Below, piece after piece: positions 33,658 to 53,119 of a DNA stretch of 64,000 nt. The position numbers and the translations under genes are program-made. The stretch spans positions 3,100,001-3,164,000 of the forward strand of contig NZ_SZZN01000001.1 of NCBI RefSeq assembly GCF_006125015.1. The letters run 5' to 3'. Numbering within the stretch: position 1 is the first letter of the stretch; each line of letters starts with the position of its first letter. Source of the stretch: Roseovarius arcticus (GTDB taxonomy: Bacteria > Pseudomonadota > Alphaproteobacteria > Rhodobacterales > Rhodobacteraceae). Under the pieces are notes generated by a model. It saw only the letters and a program-made list of their open reading frames with translations. It made no database searches and had not been told where the DNA came from.

Positions 33658-34293
33658 CTACGTCGGCAAGTTCGCCAGTATTTCTTGGGTAAGGGCCGCA
33701 ACTTCTTCCGCCGCAGGGCCCTTAGGCGCTGCGTCCTGCACGCCTTGACCTCGGCCCAAGGTCTCAGCGTAGAGTATTCTATTCGCCAAGGTCGCTTGCG
33801 CTAGTCCGGCGTCGATTTTAGCGGCCTCTTCGGCGATCTCAGCGCCTAAACGCGTCCCGACGCGGGTCCGGTTCAAGACGAGCATCGCCGGAGTGCCTGC
33901 CCTCCGCGCGAGATCAAGCACACTCTCTGTTGCCCACAAGTCCACGTGGCTGGTTGCCACAGGAACCAGCACCAGCGCGGCTTTGCGCAGCGCCGGTCGC
34001 AGATCGCTGTCTGCTTTGGGGGGCGTGTCCACCAGAACAAAATCATACGCATCAGCCAGCTTGCCAGCCTCATAATCGACCCCCCAAGCGGAGGAGGTGG
34101 AGAATTCCAAGCCAGGGTCAGACATCAACTCCCGGCGGGTCATGAACCATCGCCCAAGGCTACCCTGAGGATCTGTGTCGATGAGAGCAACACTATGCCC
34201 TAACGCCGCAAGAGCTACGGCGAGGTTCGCAGTCAACGTGGTCTTGCCACTGCCGCCCTTTTGCTGTGCAACTGTGATTACCGTGCCGCTCAT
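33658..34293 (-). CDS. Orphan ParA-family ATPase
   Basis: The 211-residue P-loop ATPase has the deviant Walker [12 protein letters not shown] at about 9-19, [11 protein letters not shown], and [10 protein letters not shown] as Walker B region. It is shorter than chromosomal ParA (no N-terminal helix-turn-helix), like plasmid Ib-type ParA, ParC or positioning proteins for cargo such as chemoreceptors or carboxysomes. The ATG at 34293 has GGAGG; the longer frame to 34479 overlaps a palindrome and is unlikely. No parB, cargo gene or plasmid replication gene is near, so the cargo is unknown. Confidence 0.92.
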
Positions 34294-34315
34294 GTCTACC
34301 TCCACCAAGAAGTGC

Positions 34316-34332
34316 TGCAATGCAGCATTGCA
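34316..34332. promoter_or_regulatory. Perfect palindrome TGCAATGC-A-GCATTGCA upstream of the ParA gene
   Basis: Eight-base arms around one central A lie 23 bp before the ParA start codon. Position fits an operator (autorepression) or a centromere-like site for a partner protein. Confidence 0.5.
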
Positions 34333-34666
34333 CAGGCAGCGACAAATTGCACTAGCCAAACCGCATACGAGAGCGTCCTTCGGGGAGGTGAAGGCTGATT
34401 GCATGGCCAGCATTTCAACGACCCGCCAGCTGGATGATTGTCGCTCTGCTGACCCACGCAATCCCGGCTCGCGCAGCAATCGCGATGTACGTGGTAATTC
34501 AAGCGCCGCTGAATGACCCTAGATCAGTCCCTTGAAAGAAGTTTAACCAAACTAAGCGTCCACCTCTGAACTGACGCGTCTTTTGCCAGGCCCAACTCTC
34601 AAACGAGTTTCGCAAATCGCCAGTAACACGGCTGCGTTTCTCAGCGGAGCTACTGGCGCTGCCTCT
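34333..34666. other. 334 bp gap upstream of the ParA gene
   Basis: It separates the ParA gene from the end of the COG4705 gene, all leftward. It must contain the ParA promoter. I see no gene in it. Confidence 0.45.
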
Positions 34667-49912: not shown

Positions 49913-50359
49913 TCACGACCCAATCGCGCCTTTTGCATGGGGCTGCTCGACGCGGATGACGGTCAACTGACGGCGCTGATCTTTGCGCGTGTCCCAGTAG
50001 AACCCCGCGCCCTCCGACAGACCCAGAAGGGCAACACCTATCGGGGTCATGATTGAAACCTGCTGGCGCGAGATATCGGCGTTTTCAGGGTAAACAAGCG
50101 TCACAGCCTTTTCCTGACCCGTTGTTTCATCGCGGTAAGTTACCGCACTGCCAATCGTCACAACATTCGCGGGCATTTTCTTGGATTTTGCGATGCGGGC
50201 GCGGCCAATTTCGTTCAGCAGGCGTTCGGCCAGTGCTGGATTGTGCTGCATCGCACCGGCTGCAAGTGCCTCGATGTGAGTGAGCTCATCCTCACTGATT
50301 ACGATTTTAGGGTCACGCGCGCGGCGGGTCTTGGTGGCGTGAAGGATCTGGTGTGTCAT
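49913..50359 (-). CDS. rnk: Rnk-type nucleoside diphosphate kinase regulator
   Basis: A 148-residue protein of the Rnk branch of the GreA/GreB C-terminal fold. It shows a short helical N-terminus (SEDELTHIEALAAGAM), then the FKBP-like domain: VVTIGSAVTYRDETTGQEKAVTLVYPENAD and SIMTPIGVALLGLSEGAGFYW. Rnk proteins bind RNA polymerase near the secondary channel. The ATG at 50359 has GGAGG upstream; an in-frame start at 50404 is weaker. A divergent paralogue precedes it on the same strand. Confidence 0.93.
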   Translation of the reverse strand: MTHQILHATKTRRARDPKIVISEDELTHIEALAAGAMQHNPALAERLLNEIGRARIAKSKKMPANVVTIGSAVTYRDETTGQEKAVTLVYPENADISRQQVSIMTPIGVALLGLSEGAGFYWDTRKDQRRQLTVIRVEQPHAKGAIGS

Positions 50360-50430
50360 TGGATGACCTCCGTTGGAGAGCGTTGGAAACATGGCATCTT
50401 GCAAATTGCCTTATGGCAAAGAGGCGTCCC

Positions 50431-50874
50431 TCAGGCTGCGGACGTAACTTTCAGAACCCTCAGCGAGGCGATCGTGCCATCCTCGCGCAGCAGCGGCGCG
50501 CGCTGGCCGACTCGCATCCCAATCAGCGCAGCCCCCAGATTTGAACAAACCGGGATCACGTCGCACTCTAGTTCGCTTCGCGGCCTGTGGCGCATCAGAC
50601 CGATCTGCGCCGGATCGCCATTCACCGAATAGGTCACATAGGACGCGCCAGTCACAAGATCTTCGTACATCCCGTCGCAGTTATGCGTGATTGTGCTGAG
50701 CTTGTGTCGCAGGACGTACCGTAAAAATGGCTGATCTGCGACGTCGGGCTGGTTCAGATGCTGCCGAAGCTGCCGGTAATCTTCGTCAGGCAAGGGCGCC
50801 GACCGTCTTGGGGCGGTTTTGATTCCAGAATGCTCTTTGGAAGTGATCAGTTGATGTGGATTGATGCCGTGCAT
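50431..50874 (-). CDS. Divergent Rnk/GreA-C-type protein
   Basis: The 147-residue protein has the same layout as the neighbouring Rnk: a helical start (DEDYRQLRQHLNQPDV) and a GreA-C-like barrel (YVTYSVNGDPAQIGLMRHRP, VIPVCSNLGAALIGMRVGQRAPL). The central sequence differs strongly, so it is an old duplicate. The ATG at 50874 follows GAGGAG; an earlier start at 50910 would overlap this site. It lies 71 bp upstream of rnk and likely shares its mRNA. A strongly folded leader precedes it. Confidence 0.85.
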   Translation of the reverse strand: MHGINPHQLITSKEHSGIKTAPRRSAPLPDEDYRQLRQHLNQPDVADQPFLRYVLRHKLSTITHNCDGMYEDLVTGASYVTYSVNGDPAQIGLMRHRPRSELECDVIPVCSNLGAALIGMRVGQRAPLLREDGTIASLRVLKVTSAA

Positions 50875-50928
50875 GGATACTCCTCGGACGCCGCAACGTC
50901 TCGTACTCAATTCAGATTGGTGAGGAGG

Positions 50929-51401: not shown

Positions 51402-51439
51402 GGGCCAGCATCCTCGGGAGGAGGTGAAGATGCTGGCCC
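51402..51439 (-). ncRNA. CcsR/cuckoo-type sRNA hairpin with CCUCCUCCC loop (distal)
   Basis: Minus-strand arms GGGCCAGCATC and GATGCTGGCCC (51429-51439, 51402-51412) form a perfect 11-bp stem. The 16-base loop displays CCUCCUCCC. An anti-Shine-Dalgarno loop of this type after a DUF1127 gene is the hallmark of CcsR (cuckoo) RNAs of Rhodobacter sphaeroides and relatives, which are cut from the DUF1127 mRNA. Confidence 0.8.
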
Positions 51440-51441
51440 CT

Positions 51442-51476
51442 GCGGCGTTCAGCCCTGGGAGGCAGGACCGCGCCGC
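51442..51476 (-). ncRNA. Middle hairpin between the two CCUCCUCCC loops
   Basis: Stem GCGGCG/CGCCGC (51442-51447, 51471-51476) encloses a second small stem CCTG/CAGG whose loop shows CCUCC on the minus strand, a partial copy of the motif. It may be a processing spacer or a reduced third unit. Confidence 0.55.
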
Positions 51477-51478
51477 TC

Positions 51479-51514
51479 GTGCTGGTCGGCTCTGGGAGGA
51501 GTGAGAGCCAGCAC
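51479..51514 (-). ncRNA. CcsR/cuckoo-type sRNA hairpin with CUCCUCCC loop (proximal)
   Basis: Minus-strand stem GTGCT + GGCTCT pairs with AGAGCC + AGCAC, leaving a four-base bulge. The ten-base loop exposes ACUCCUCCC, eight of nine motif bases. It lies 71 bp after the DUF1127 stop and 40 bp upstream of the distal hairpin, the two-hairpin plan of the cuckoo family. Confidence 0.78.
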
Positions 51515-51523
51515 TTTCTCGGG

Positions 51524-51555
51524 ATGACCGCCTGCTGAGAGGCGCAGCCGGTCAT
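51524..51555 (-). ncRNA. Stem-loop directly after the DUF1127 coding region
   Basis: Arms ATGACCG/CGGTCAT (51524-51530, 51549-51555) with inner GCCT/AGGC pairs. It lacks the CUCCUCC motif and may mark the processing site between mRNA and sRNAs. Confidence 0.5.
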
Positions 51556-51584
51556 GACGCTTGGCGCCTTGGCGCATGTCAGTC

Positions 51585-51860
51585 TTAGTCCGAATGATCT
51601 GTCATCAGGGTTTCGGCGTAGGCGGGAATCTCGGTGCGCTTGATCCCAATTTCTGCCAACTGGCGGTCATTCATCTCGTAGAGCACTTTCACCATGCGGC
51701 TGAGCTGCACCGTGTACATCAGCGATGCGAGCCAGCGCACTGTGCCGGCGCCCATGCGCACCAATGCGGCACCAAGCGGCGCGGCCCAGTTTGGCCTGTG
51801 AAAATCAACGGAGGCGAAGCGGCGCACATCATGTGCAACCTGTTTGATGCTAGCAGCCAT
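51585..51860 (-). CDS. DUF1127 protein (CcaF1-like), longer form
   Basis: The 91-residue protein carries the DUF1127/YjiS motif near the C-terminus (LYEMNDRQLAEIGIKRTEI), preceded by a hydrophobic stretch (LGAALVRMGAGTVRWLASLMY). Small basic DUF1127 proteins bind RNA; CcaF1 of R. sphaeroides, encoded in front of CcsR RNAs, affects sRNA processing and stability. This gene directly precedes the CCUCCUCCC hairpins. It overlaps the upstream DUF1127 gene by 11 bp, so the two are co-translated. Confidence 0.88.
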   Translation of the reverse strand: MAASIKQVAHDVRRFASVDFHRPNWAAPLGAALVRMGAGTVRWLASLMYTVQLSRMVKVLYEMNDRQLAEIGIKRTEIPAYAETLMTDHSD

Positions 51861-52074
51861 ATGCTGTCTCCCATGCGAGACGTGTGATGTGGCTGCGGGG
51901 AATTGCCAGATCTCGTAGTTCCTGGTCCGATAGGGCCGAGAGCTCTGTGATCGTCCGGCAGTAAAGTTTGCGGCGGCTCCGTGCCGCCTGAAGCTTGCCC
52001 ACGGCTTGCTGAAAAACCGTGCGCGTGCCTACAAAAACGCCGCCGAGTTGTTGCATTGAATGTGTATCGGTCAT
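51850..52074 (-). CDS. DUF1127 protein, shorter form
   Basis: A 74-residue protein ending with the DUF1127 motif ITELSALSDQELRDLAIPR and an Arg-rich region (AARSRRKLYCR) before it, consistent with RNA binding. It is the first gene of the unit and has GAGGAGCAA as ribosome site. Two consecutive DUF1127 genes before CcsR-like hairpins differ from the single CcaF1 gene of R. sphaeroides. It is divergent from a LysR gene. Confidence 0.9.
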   Translation of the reverse strand: MTDTHSMQQLGGVFVGTRTVFQQAVGKLQAARSRRKLYCRTITELSALSDQELRDLAIPRSHITRLAWETAYGC

Positions 52075-52104
52075 GTTTGCTCCTCGGTGCTTGCTGCAGC
52101 GCGG

Positions 52105-52138
52105 AATTTATGCTGCACTGCAGAAATAGGCGGCCAAG
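52105..52138 (-). promoter_or_regulatory. Possible heat-shock-type promoter of the DUF1127/sRNA unit
   Basis: On the minus strand CTTGG (52138-52134) and CATAAA (52111-52106) stand at a spacing suitable for an RpoH-like promoter, 30-65 bp before the first start. CcsR operons are known to be RpoH controlled. The match is only partial. Confidence 0.35.
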
Positions 52139-52204
52139 ACGGGGCTCACAACTCTTCAAAACCGCATAGCCGCTATGACGGAATGGAACAGGAAGCTCGC
52201 AAAG

Positions 52205-53119
52205 ATGGATATTTCGTCGCAGATGTTGCTTTTCGTAAAGGTCGTTGAGCGCGGCAGCATATCCGCCGCCGCGCGCGCTGTGGGTCAGACCCCTTCAGCG
52301 GTCAGCAAGCAGATCGGGATGCTAGAGGATCAAGTTCGTCACCGCCTGCTAAACCGGACGCGCAGCGGCGTGCTACCAACGCCCGAAGGCCACGATTTCT
52401 ACGAAAAGTGTAAGGCGCTGGCGGAAAAGTTCGCAGATGCCAAGGCACACATCCAAAGCCTTGATGGGTCACCGCGCGGCAAACTGAAGATCGCGTCCAG
52501 CGTGGCGTTTGGTAAATCGCAACTTATTCCGGTTCTGCCCAAATTCCTTAACGCCTATCCGGACGTCAGCGTAGCATTGGACCTAACTGACCGCGATATC
52601 GACATTGAGGCCGAACGCTTTGACGTCGCGATCTGCTTTGCCGAGCAGCGTAAAATGTCCGACATCGTCGTCCGTAAATTTATGCAGAGCCGAAGGATAC
52701 TTTGCGCGGCGCCTGCATATCTGGAGCGTGCAGGCCACCCTCAGAATTTTGCGGATTTGGCGCAGCACAATTGCCTGCGGCTTGCGGGTAATCACGAGCG
52801 AAACGAGTGGATATGGCAAAGCGATGCCAAGAGCGCGAATTTCGAGGCAAAGGGCAATTTCGAGGGCAACAGCACTGACGTGGTCTTTCGCGCGACGCTT
52901 GCAGGCCTCGGAATTGCGCGATTGCCGTCCTATCTGGTTGCGGCCAAGCTGCAATCGGCTGAACTGATCCGCGTGCTGCCTGAGTATTCACAGCAGAATG
53001 CTGAAATCGCAGTGCTTTTTGCTGACAAACGCAACCTGGCGCCCAGGATCCGGGTATTCGTCGATTTCCTCGTGAAGGAGTTTCGTAGCGGTCCGGAGTT
53101 CTGCCTAGTTGAAGCGTAG
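52205..53119 (+). CDS. LysR-family transcriptional regulator
   Basis: The 304-residue regulator has the N-terminal winged helix (VVERGSISAAARAVGQTPSAVSKQIGMLED) and a LysR substrate-binding domain (GKLKIASSVAFGKSQLIPVLPKF, ERFDVAICFAEQRK). I prefer ATG 52205 with AGGAAG upstream; ATG 52175 would add ten residues. It resembles the large group acting on divergent oxidoreductase or efflux genes, but here the divergent unit is DUF1127/sRNA and the next gene downstream is benE after a gap, so the target is unclear. Confidence 0.93.
   Translation: MDISSQMLLFVKVVERGSISAAARAVGQTPSAVSKQIGMLEDQVRHRLLNRTRSGVLPTPEGHDFYEKCKALAEKFADAKAHIQSLDGSPRGKLKIASSVAFGKSQLIPVLPKFLNAYPDVSVALDLTDRDIDIEAERFDVAICFAEQRKMSDIVVRKFMQSRRILCAAPAYLERAGHPQNFADLAQHNCLRLAGNHERNEWIWQSDAKSANFEAKGNFEGNSTDVVFRATLAGLGIARLPSYLVAAKLQSAELIRVLPEYSQQNAEIAVLFADKRNLAPRIRVFVDFLVKEFRSGPEFCLVEA

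Follow-up and report, generated by a model that had tools for sequence, protein, structure and literature searches.

The window, a 64,000-nt stretch of the Roseovarius arcticus genome, carries a LysR-linked twin DUF1127 locus that is best read as a variant of the known cuckoo-type 3'UTR sRNA loci. We consider it very probable that the locus is a genuine anti-Shine-Dalgarno (aSD) RNA operon. We also lean slightly towards a fuller proposal, in which it is a regulated operon of the cuckoo/CIN1 kind that forms a separate conserved type, is controlled by LysR and PhaR, and is matured by DUF1127 proteins. The grounds for this proposal are observed ones, namely the anatomy of the locus, its conservation, the covariation of its hairpins, its linkage to the LysR gene, and the conservation of two promoter boxes. 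The features of the locus are as follows.

51850..52074, minus strand: gene A, first DUF1127 protein, 74 aa (PF06568, E = 1.5e-6, above cut-off)
51585..51860, minus strand: gene B, second, divergent DUF1127 protein, 91 aa (sub-threshold DUF1127 match; conserved in alignments A1 and A6; an orthologue above cut-off)
51478..51515, minus strand: hairpin H1, loop ACUCCUCCC (covariation; ordinary energy)
51442..51476, minus strand: hairpin H2, partial motif CCUCCC (z = -2.79 for the window sequence)
51402..51439, minus strand: hairpin H3, loop CCUCCUCCC / ACCUCCUCCC, 14-bp stem (z = -5.12; covariation; model matches)
52092..52103, minus strand: PhaR-type box 2, CGCGCTGCAGCA (position kept in 17/17 aligned loci)
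52111..52122, minus strand: PhaR-type box 1, TGCAGTGCAGCA (position kept in 17/17 aligned loci)
52123..52151, minus strand: predicted promoter core TTGTGA-N17-TATTTC (spacing kept in 17/22 loci by pattern)
52208..53119, plus strand: divergent LysR-type regulator gene (domains LysR_substrate and HTH_1; adjacent orthologues)

The LysR open reading frame opens at 52175, and the alignment of its relatives begins at 52208. This anatomy confirmed the observation made in the initial annotation, which had described two overlapping DUF1127 genes (here A and B, which we find to overlap by 11 bp on the minus strand, with A above the Pfam cut-off) followed on the same strand by two hairpins with a partial third between them (H1, H3, and the partial H2). 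The interpretation placed on that observation was partly supported, as set out below.

Gene B encodes the more unusual of the two proteins. Against PF06568, the window's B scored 15.6 bits (gathering cut-off 23.3); all four of the aligned B proteins matched DUF1127 at E ≤ 1 (best, 8.9e-6), and the B orthologue of locus L133 reached 24.7 bits, above the same cut-off of 23.3. BLASTP detected no similarity between A and B. The B profile also picked up ordinary DUF1127 genes of the same genome, and a scan of the genome's contigs with B itself returned a single poor match. Judged by sequence, the B proteins of twin loci are a distinct subfamily, one trait that sets the locus apart. The 74-residue A is present in 13 further loci. 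The 11-bp overlap is found in 13 loci (the window, G026, G028, G029, G101, L133–L139, and L141), while A and B overlap by 8 bp in L140 and by 4 bp in L142, L145, and L180, and are separated by a gap in L181. Weak B matches in G121, G123, G103, and G004 were discarded, as on inspection they were apparently single DUF1127 genes. In L126 (G050), both DUF1127 open reading frames appear degenerate by eye and the boxes and hairpins are retained, as if the RNAs had outlasted the proteins. In several loci, a GNAT-like gene lies after the hairpins (that of L134 scores above the Pfam cut-off); none was seen by eye in the window.

Conservation of the hairpins in related genomes, on which the initial annotation had made its claim depend, was borne out by a pattern search of 19 loci (6 from the genus and 13 from the family), in which H1-type hairpins were present in 17 and H3-type hairpins in 15. 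By this pattern, neither type was found in G029 and G026, and the H3 type was not found in L144 and L145. As a whole, the 211-nt hairpin stretch of the window folded better than 200 of 200 shuffled sequences (z = -5.92). Folded singly, the hairpins gave z values of -5.12 (H3), -2.79 (H2), and -0.06 (H1), so that H1 is not special by energy. Motif counts added little: CTCCTCCC occurs in the window at chance level (2 found vs 1.86 expected), and the genomic count of CYCCTCCC was uninformative (138 vs 159 in the control).

Covariation of H1 and H3 provides strong evidence for the hairpins, and the earlier identification of CcsR/cuckoo-type aSD hairpins downstream of the DUF1127 genes was right. 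For H1, pairs were counted in 16 of 20 rows (L134, L135, L136, and L140 were dropped as identical in paired columns) of an alignment in which an N had been inserted by hand in 10 rows. Pairing was 97.2%, and 8 of the 11 pairs had changed on both sides, in 31 such cells; on four of five measures, no shuffle among 500 reached the observed value, and on the fifth, the number of pairs changed on both sides, 2 of 500 reached it. For H3, 13 of 16 rows were counted, leaving out L135 and L136 (identical in paired columns) and the middle hairpin of L142; here, 97.3% of cells were paired, 8 of 14 pairs had changed on both sides, and no shuffle out of 500 scored as high on any of the five measures. In slid controls for H1 and H3, pairing fell to 28–47%. 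Models of H1 (R1) and H3 (R2) were then searched over 30 chosen sources. R2 matched the unused twin loci L181 (E = 1.1e-12), L180 (1.2e-11), and L177 (3.4e-10), and its best match to a canonical locus was 7.7e-5. Among the same unused loci, R1 found L177 only (E = 0.0017) and missed L180 and L181, the next matches being two canonical loci (E = 0.18 and 0.37).

The covariance-model search on which the initial annotation had likewise staked its claim gave no match at the locus at Rfam gathering thresholds, the window's only match being a tRNA elsewhere; in our judgment, the conservation and covariation outweigh this missing match. Under relaxed thresholds, ar14 (RF02344) spanned all three hairpins with 35.1 bits (E = 1.4e-4 for 1,151 bases; gathering 58.8) and CcsR1 (RF02791) reached 17.7 bits (E = 0.19; gathering 65.3). 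Since both scores lie below gathering, the locus is filed under neither family. The 6C RNA model matched H2–H3 with 33.7 bits (E = 0.022; cut-off 47); we set it aside in favour of ar14, which has the better E-value and extends over all three hairpins. Seen against the cuckoo motif, which is defined with two to four hairpins (PMC4504443), the locus has three adjacent hairpins, with the loop motif CCUCCUCCC exact in H3, matched at 8 of 9 positions in H1 (ACUCCUCCC), and reduced to CCUCCC in H2, and the stems of H1 and H3 vary in sequence yet remain paired. As in CIN1, a short DUF1127 gene, A, adjoins CcsR-like hairpins that lie downstream of it. The stoichiometry of proteins and hairpins, earlier taken to mark a distinct variant, is a weak argument because the three hairpins fall within the known range of two to four and RS0680a, an RNA of R. 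sphaeroides, carries two aSD stem-loops (PMC3927594).

The reverse complement of the H1 stem is nearly the same as the H3 stem (GUGCUGG..CCAGCAC vs CCAGCAUC..GAUGCUGG). Both are shifted to the GUGCCAG form in L143, and in L142 and L144 the two stems do not match each other; an exchange of arms between the hairpins or a shared origin is possible. Across L133–L140, most loci have AGGGAGCG or AGGGAACG in the interval that separates H1 from H3, at the place where the window has H2 (CCUCCC), and these sequences could pair with the aSD loops.

In relatives, the DUF1127 genes keep company with the LysR gene: they are divergent from it in all 18 LysR loci that were read, the window included. Within the genus, where up to 27 candidates per genome were scored, a LysR orthologue was found at E ≤ 1e-70 in 5 of 84 genomes (G000, G026, G028, G050, and G101). 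All five carry the twin genes, the pair of G050 being degenerate by eye, and in G026, G028, G101, and G050 the LysR gene lies divergently beside the pair, the same as in the window. B orthologues at E < 1e-18 were found in G000, G026, G028, G029, and G101, the next match among the 84 genomes being 2.9e-9, and some DUF1127 match at E ≤ 0.01 was present in 84 of 84. The pair of G029 does not have this LysR beside it, and a LysR orthologue is absent from that genome at E ≤ 1e-70. The four genomes behind the genus B profile had been picked by B alone, regardless of LysR, and the co-occurrence is thus not a product of construction; Fisher's test gave 1.9e-7, a value that cannot be read as a true probability, the genomes being related.

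At the level of the family, LysR was matched at E ≤ 1e-90 in at least 12 of 395 genomes (five candidates scored per genome). Besides the window, DUF1127 genes were divergent from LysR in 13 of 13 matches, with both A and B in 12 of them. L144 has A and hairpins with no B alongside, and its genome, G209, has another twin locus, L177, that does not have this LysR. The B profile A6 matched 14 of 395 genomes at E ≤ 1e-12, comprising the 12 with LysR together with G498 and G417, and 42 genomes at E ≤ 1e-6. With the two sets of 395 genomes taken as the same draw, B was present in 12 of 12 genomes with LysR and in 2 of 383 without it (Fisher 3.6e-21). Some circularity attaches to this count, since most of the loci behind A6 were LysR-linked and the E ≤ 1e-12 line was drawn afterwards, and we put no weight on its Fisher value; neither the genus count nor the inspection of neighbours is affected. 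Twin loci without this LysR adjoining are those of G029, L177, L180, and L181, and by eye the pair of G498 stands in the opposite order, next to another LysR. For the window's LysR, the best NCBIfam model was YafC (190 bits vs a cut-off of 470), and the nearest PDB sequence was 3mz1, a putative regulator that is uninformative on the ligand. Control of the operon by this LysR is a likely reading of the arrangement.

Two PhaR-type boxes lie between the promoter core and gene A. A strict pattern found them exactly 19 bp apart in 18 of the 22 loci of the twin set, the exceptions being L177 (spacing of 21 bp), G029 (one box), and L145 and L181 (zero boxes); in L178 a looser pair is spaced by 22 bp, and L184 has no boxes. 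When the promoters of 17 of the 18 LysR loci were aligned (the box-less L145 having been omitted beforehand), the best-kept part was the two boxes and their AT-rich spacer. A core of the form TTG-N20-TANNT stands ahead of box 1 in 17 of 22 loci. The window's predicted core has TTG at -35 and TAT at -12, which fits sigma-70 promoters and RpoHI/HII promoters alike, the latter needing TTG and TAT (PMC10673084). No second perfect match to the box pair exists in the window, where 0.05 matches are expected even with three mismatches. Genome-wide, the double palindrome with a single mismatch occurs at three places, the window's among them; with three mismatches the count is swamped (86 vs 40 per strand). 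Single boxes prove little because they number 115 in the genome vs 45 in the control.

The boxes fit two published consensus sequences, one from footprints of Bradyrhizobium PhaR (TGCRNYGCASMA; PMC6201568) and one reported for R. sphaeroides PhaR (CTGCNNNGCAG; PMC12542648); box 1 matches exactly, and box 2 has C for the first T. The genome encodes PhaR (PF07879, E = 2.5e-27), and a phasin-like gene (below the Pfam cut-off) beside phaR has two similar boxes upstream, 28 bp apart by eye. The box matches listed include ones upstream of a cuckoo-like place at C1:1530453 and of a DUF1127 gene at C1:358686. We hold control of the operon by PhaR, as suggested by these motifs, to be reasonably probable. 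In S. meliloti, PhaR represses mmgR, and a PhaR site between the -10 element and the start of SMa1961 goes with strong repression (PMC12542648). Elsewhere in the window (34313-34327), a perfect palindromic PhaR-type box, TGCTGCAATGCAGCA, stands directly upstream of the likely start of the gene at 33658-34479 on the minus strand, which encodes a ParA/MipZ-like ATPase.

Canonical loci were represented by 15 of 18 single-DUF1127 stretches (L065, L066, and L077 were omitted as incomplete or hairpin-less). Such a box was found in none of the 15 within 330 nt before the DUF1127 domain, and 12 of the 15 have another palindrome, CTGCATAGCAG or CTGCATGGCAG. The canonical loci L025, L064, L067–L076, and L078–L080 have TGCATRGCAGCATTG in common, which is close to the reverse complement of the Brucella VtlR motif CAATGCAGCCATGCA quoted in PMC12595884; the canonical CTGCATRGCAG likewise resembles the VtlR motif.

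The R. arcticus genome has seven DUF1127 matches at E ≤ 0.1, of which six lie above the cut-off and the seventh is B, and three ar14-like places at E ≤ 1, one of them the window locus and none above the cut-off. The place at C1:3805493 lies directly downstream of a single DUF1127 gene, the canonical arrangement, and that at C1:1530453 has no adjoining DUF1127 match. Because a canonical locus exists at C1:3805493, the window locus is an additional type and not this genome's ccaF1–CcsR counterpart. On sequence grounds, we regard the twin type as a separate conserved module rather than a recounted ccaF1–CcsR locus. The proposal of a variant distinct from ccaF1–CcsR therefore stands, upheld by the divergent LysR, the B subfamily, and the paired PhaR-type boxes.

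Several known systems share parts of this architecture. In ccaF1–CcsR1-4 of R. sphaeroides (CIN1, cuckoo RNAs), a DUF1127 gene is likewise followed by aSD hairpins on the same strand, but there is one such gene and its promoter is reported to be RpoHI/RpoHII dependent (PMC10253847), whereas the window has two DUF1127 genes that are unlike each other, together with a divergently oriented LysR gene and two boxes of the PhaR type. The NfeR1/alpha-r14 RNAs of rhizobia (ar14) also have three aSD hairpins, and NfeR1 is LysR-controlled by LsrB (PMC10746234, PMC7143759); the window locus differs in its ar14 score below the cut-off and in belonging to a DUF1127 operon that has a LysR neighbour of its own. 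The sRNA MmgR of Sinorhizobium meliloti has an aSD motif and is repressed by PhaR/AniA (PMC12542648, PMC7143759), but it belongs to RNA family alpha-r8, is a single gene, and is tied to phasin levels. The VtlR regulon of Brucella likewise places DUF1127 genes and an sRNA under a LysR regulator (PMC12595884), but its targets are scattered.

Could the locus nevertheless be an ordinary extra copy of ccaF1–CcsR, driven by RpoHI/RpoHII under heat and singlet oxygen, with a simple duplication of the protein and with the LysR gene and boxes incidental? The general layout is the same as that of ccaF1–CcsR (PMC10253847), and the core carries TTG and TAT, both required by RpoHI/HII promoters (PMC10673084). 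We nonetheless find this unlikely, given that A and B lack BLASTP similarity, that relatives keep both the neighbouring LysR and the paired boxes, and that the canonical loci have the other palindrome and no such box. An equally doubtful reading holds that the adjacent LysR, not PhaR, binds the two boxes, which would make the locus a plain LysR-controlled sRNA operon like nfeR1. The boxes do accompany LysR in 17 of the 18 LysR loci, and LsrB controls NfeR1 (PMC10746234); yet the boxes remain at twin loci without this LysR adjoining (L177, L180, and one box in G029, whose genome has no LysR orthologue at E ≤ 1e-70), and they fit published PhaR consensus sequences (PMC12542648, PMC6201568). It is very improbable that the H1 stretch is a third small gene, with an invariant core LxPPRV in one frame and the hairpins as a by-product: LAPPRV or a near variant can be read in an open frame in many of the listed loci, but the stems vary as base pairs (H1 covariation), and the distance between the H1 and H3 motifs shifts by non-multiples of three (e.g. 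78, 79, 81, and 82).

For the favoured regulated operon, we infer transcription, processing, binding, and targets as follows. The promoter TTGTGA-N17-TATTTC before A would give one transcript that comprises A, B, and a 3' UTR with two to four aSD hairpins, and translation of A and B is probably coupled via the 11-bp overlap. CcaF1 and RNase E mature the CcsR RNAs from CcaF1's own transcript (PMC10253847, PMC8625941); by analogy, the basic DUF1127 proteins (A, B, or both) may bind the transcript and aid RNase E in cutting the 3' UTR into stable hairpin RNAs. LsrB, a LysR regulator, activates the aSD RNA NfeR1, which silences ntrB (PMC10746234). On the NfeR1 model, the CU-rich loops would pair with the Shine-Dalgarno regions of selected mRNAs and lower their translation, and such action of the hairpins on Shine-Dalgarno regions is quite likely. 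The divergent LysR would be a dedicated regulator, most likely an activating one. PhaR, in turn, would act as a repressor at the two boxes, which adjoin the -10 element and overlie the likely start site, and this repression would be lifted as PHB granules titrate PhaR away. Against the operon reading stand the twin genes of G029 and G026, which have no hairpins by pattern, the box-less L145 and L181 and single-box G029, and the loci without this LysR adjoining (G029, L177, L180, and L181). The sub-threshold Rfam scores, the single unused twin locus matched by R1, the abundance of single boxes, the disputed role of DUF1127 proteins, and the core's fit to RpoHI/HII promoters also weigh on that side.

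More tentatively, the locus may be a carbon-storage-gated aSD cassette, in which LysR and the PHB sensor PhaR would jointly control the operon and two unlike DUF1127 proteins would mature two structurally distinct hairpin classes (H1 and H3). Were this so, DUF1127/cuckoo loci would form a branch of the PhaR regulon in Rhodobacteraceae that links stored carbon to translation; the PhaR-type boxes point to stored PHB as the physiological input. On the favoured reading too, this marine bacterium's conserved module of two small proteins and three hairpins that mimic the mRNA-recognition sequence of the ribosome is probably switched by its LysR neighbour and by the carbon-storage regulator PhaR, and this would couple protein synthesis to stored carbon. 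In the passages of the literature covered, we found no proposal of a PHB input for DUF1127/cuckoo loci; PMC9230146 contains the words DUF1127, PhaR, and polyhydroxybutyrate. Similarly, no description of the LysR-linked twin form was found in the portions of the DUF1127/cuckoo RNA literature covered, and one may exist elsewhere. DUF1127 proteins occur widely, and whether they act by binding RNA or by binding proteins is disputed (PMC12501420); a conserved twin module with aSD RNAs and a regulator gene makes a natural test case for this disputed mode of action.

Two further observations concern the surroundings of the hairpins. An extra stable hairpin without the aSD motif (51520-51559, minus strand, z = -3.72) lies between gene B and H1. 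Downstream of the locus, at 49913-50910 on the minus strand, a nucleoside diphosphate kinase regulator gene (Rnk/GreA type) stands in tandem with a weakly similar gene (E = 3.2e-5).
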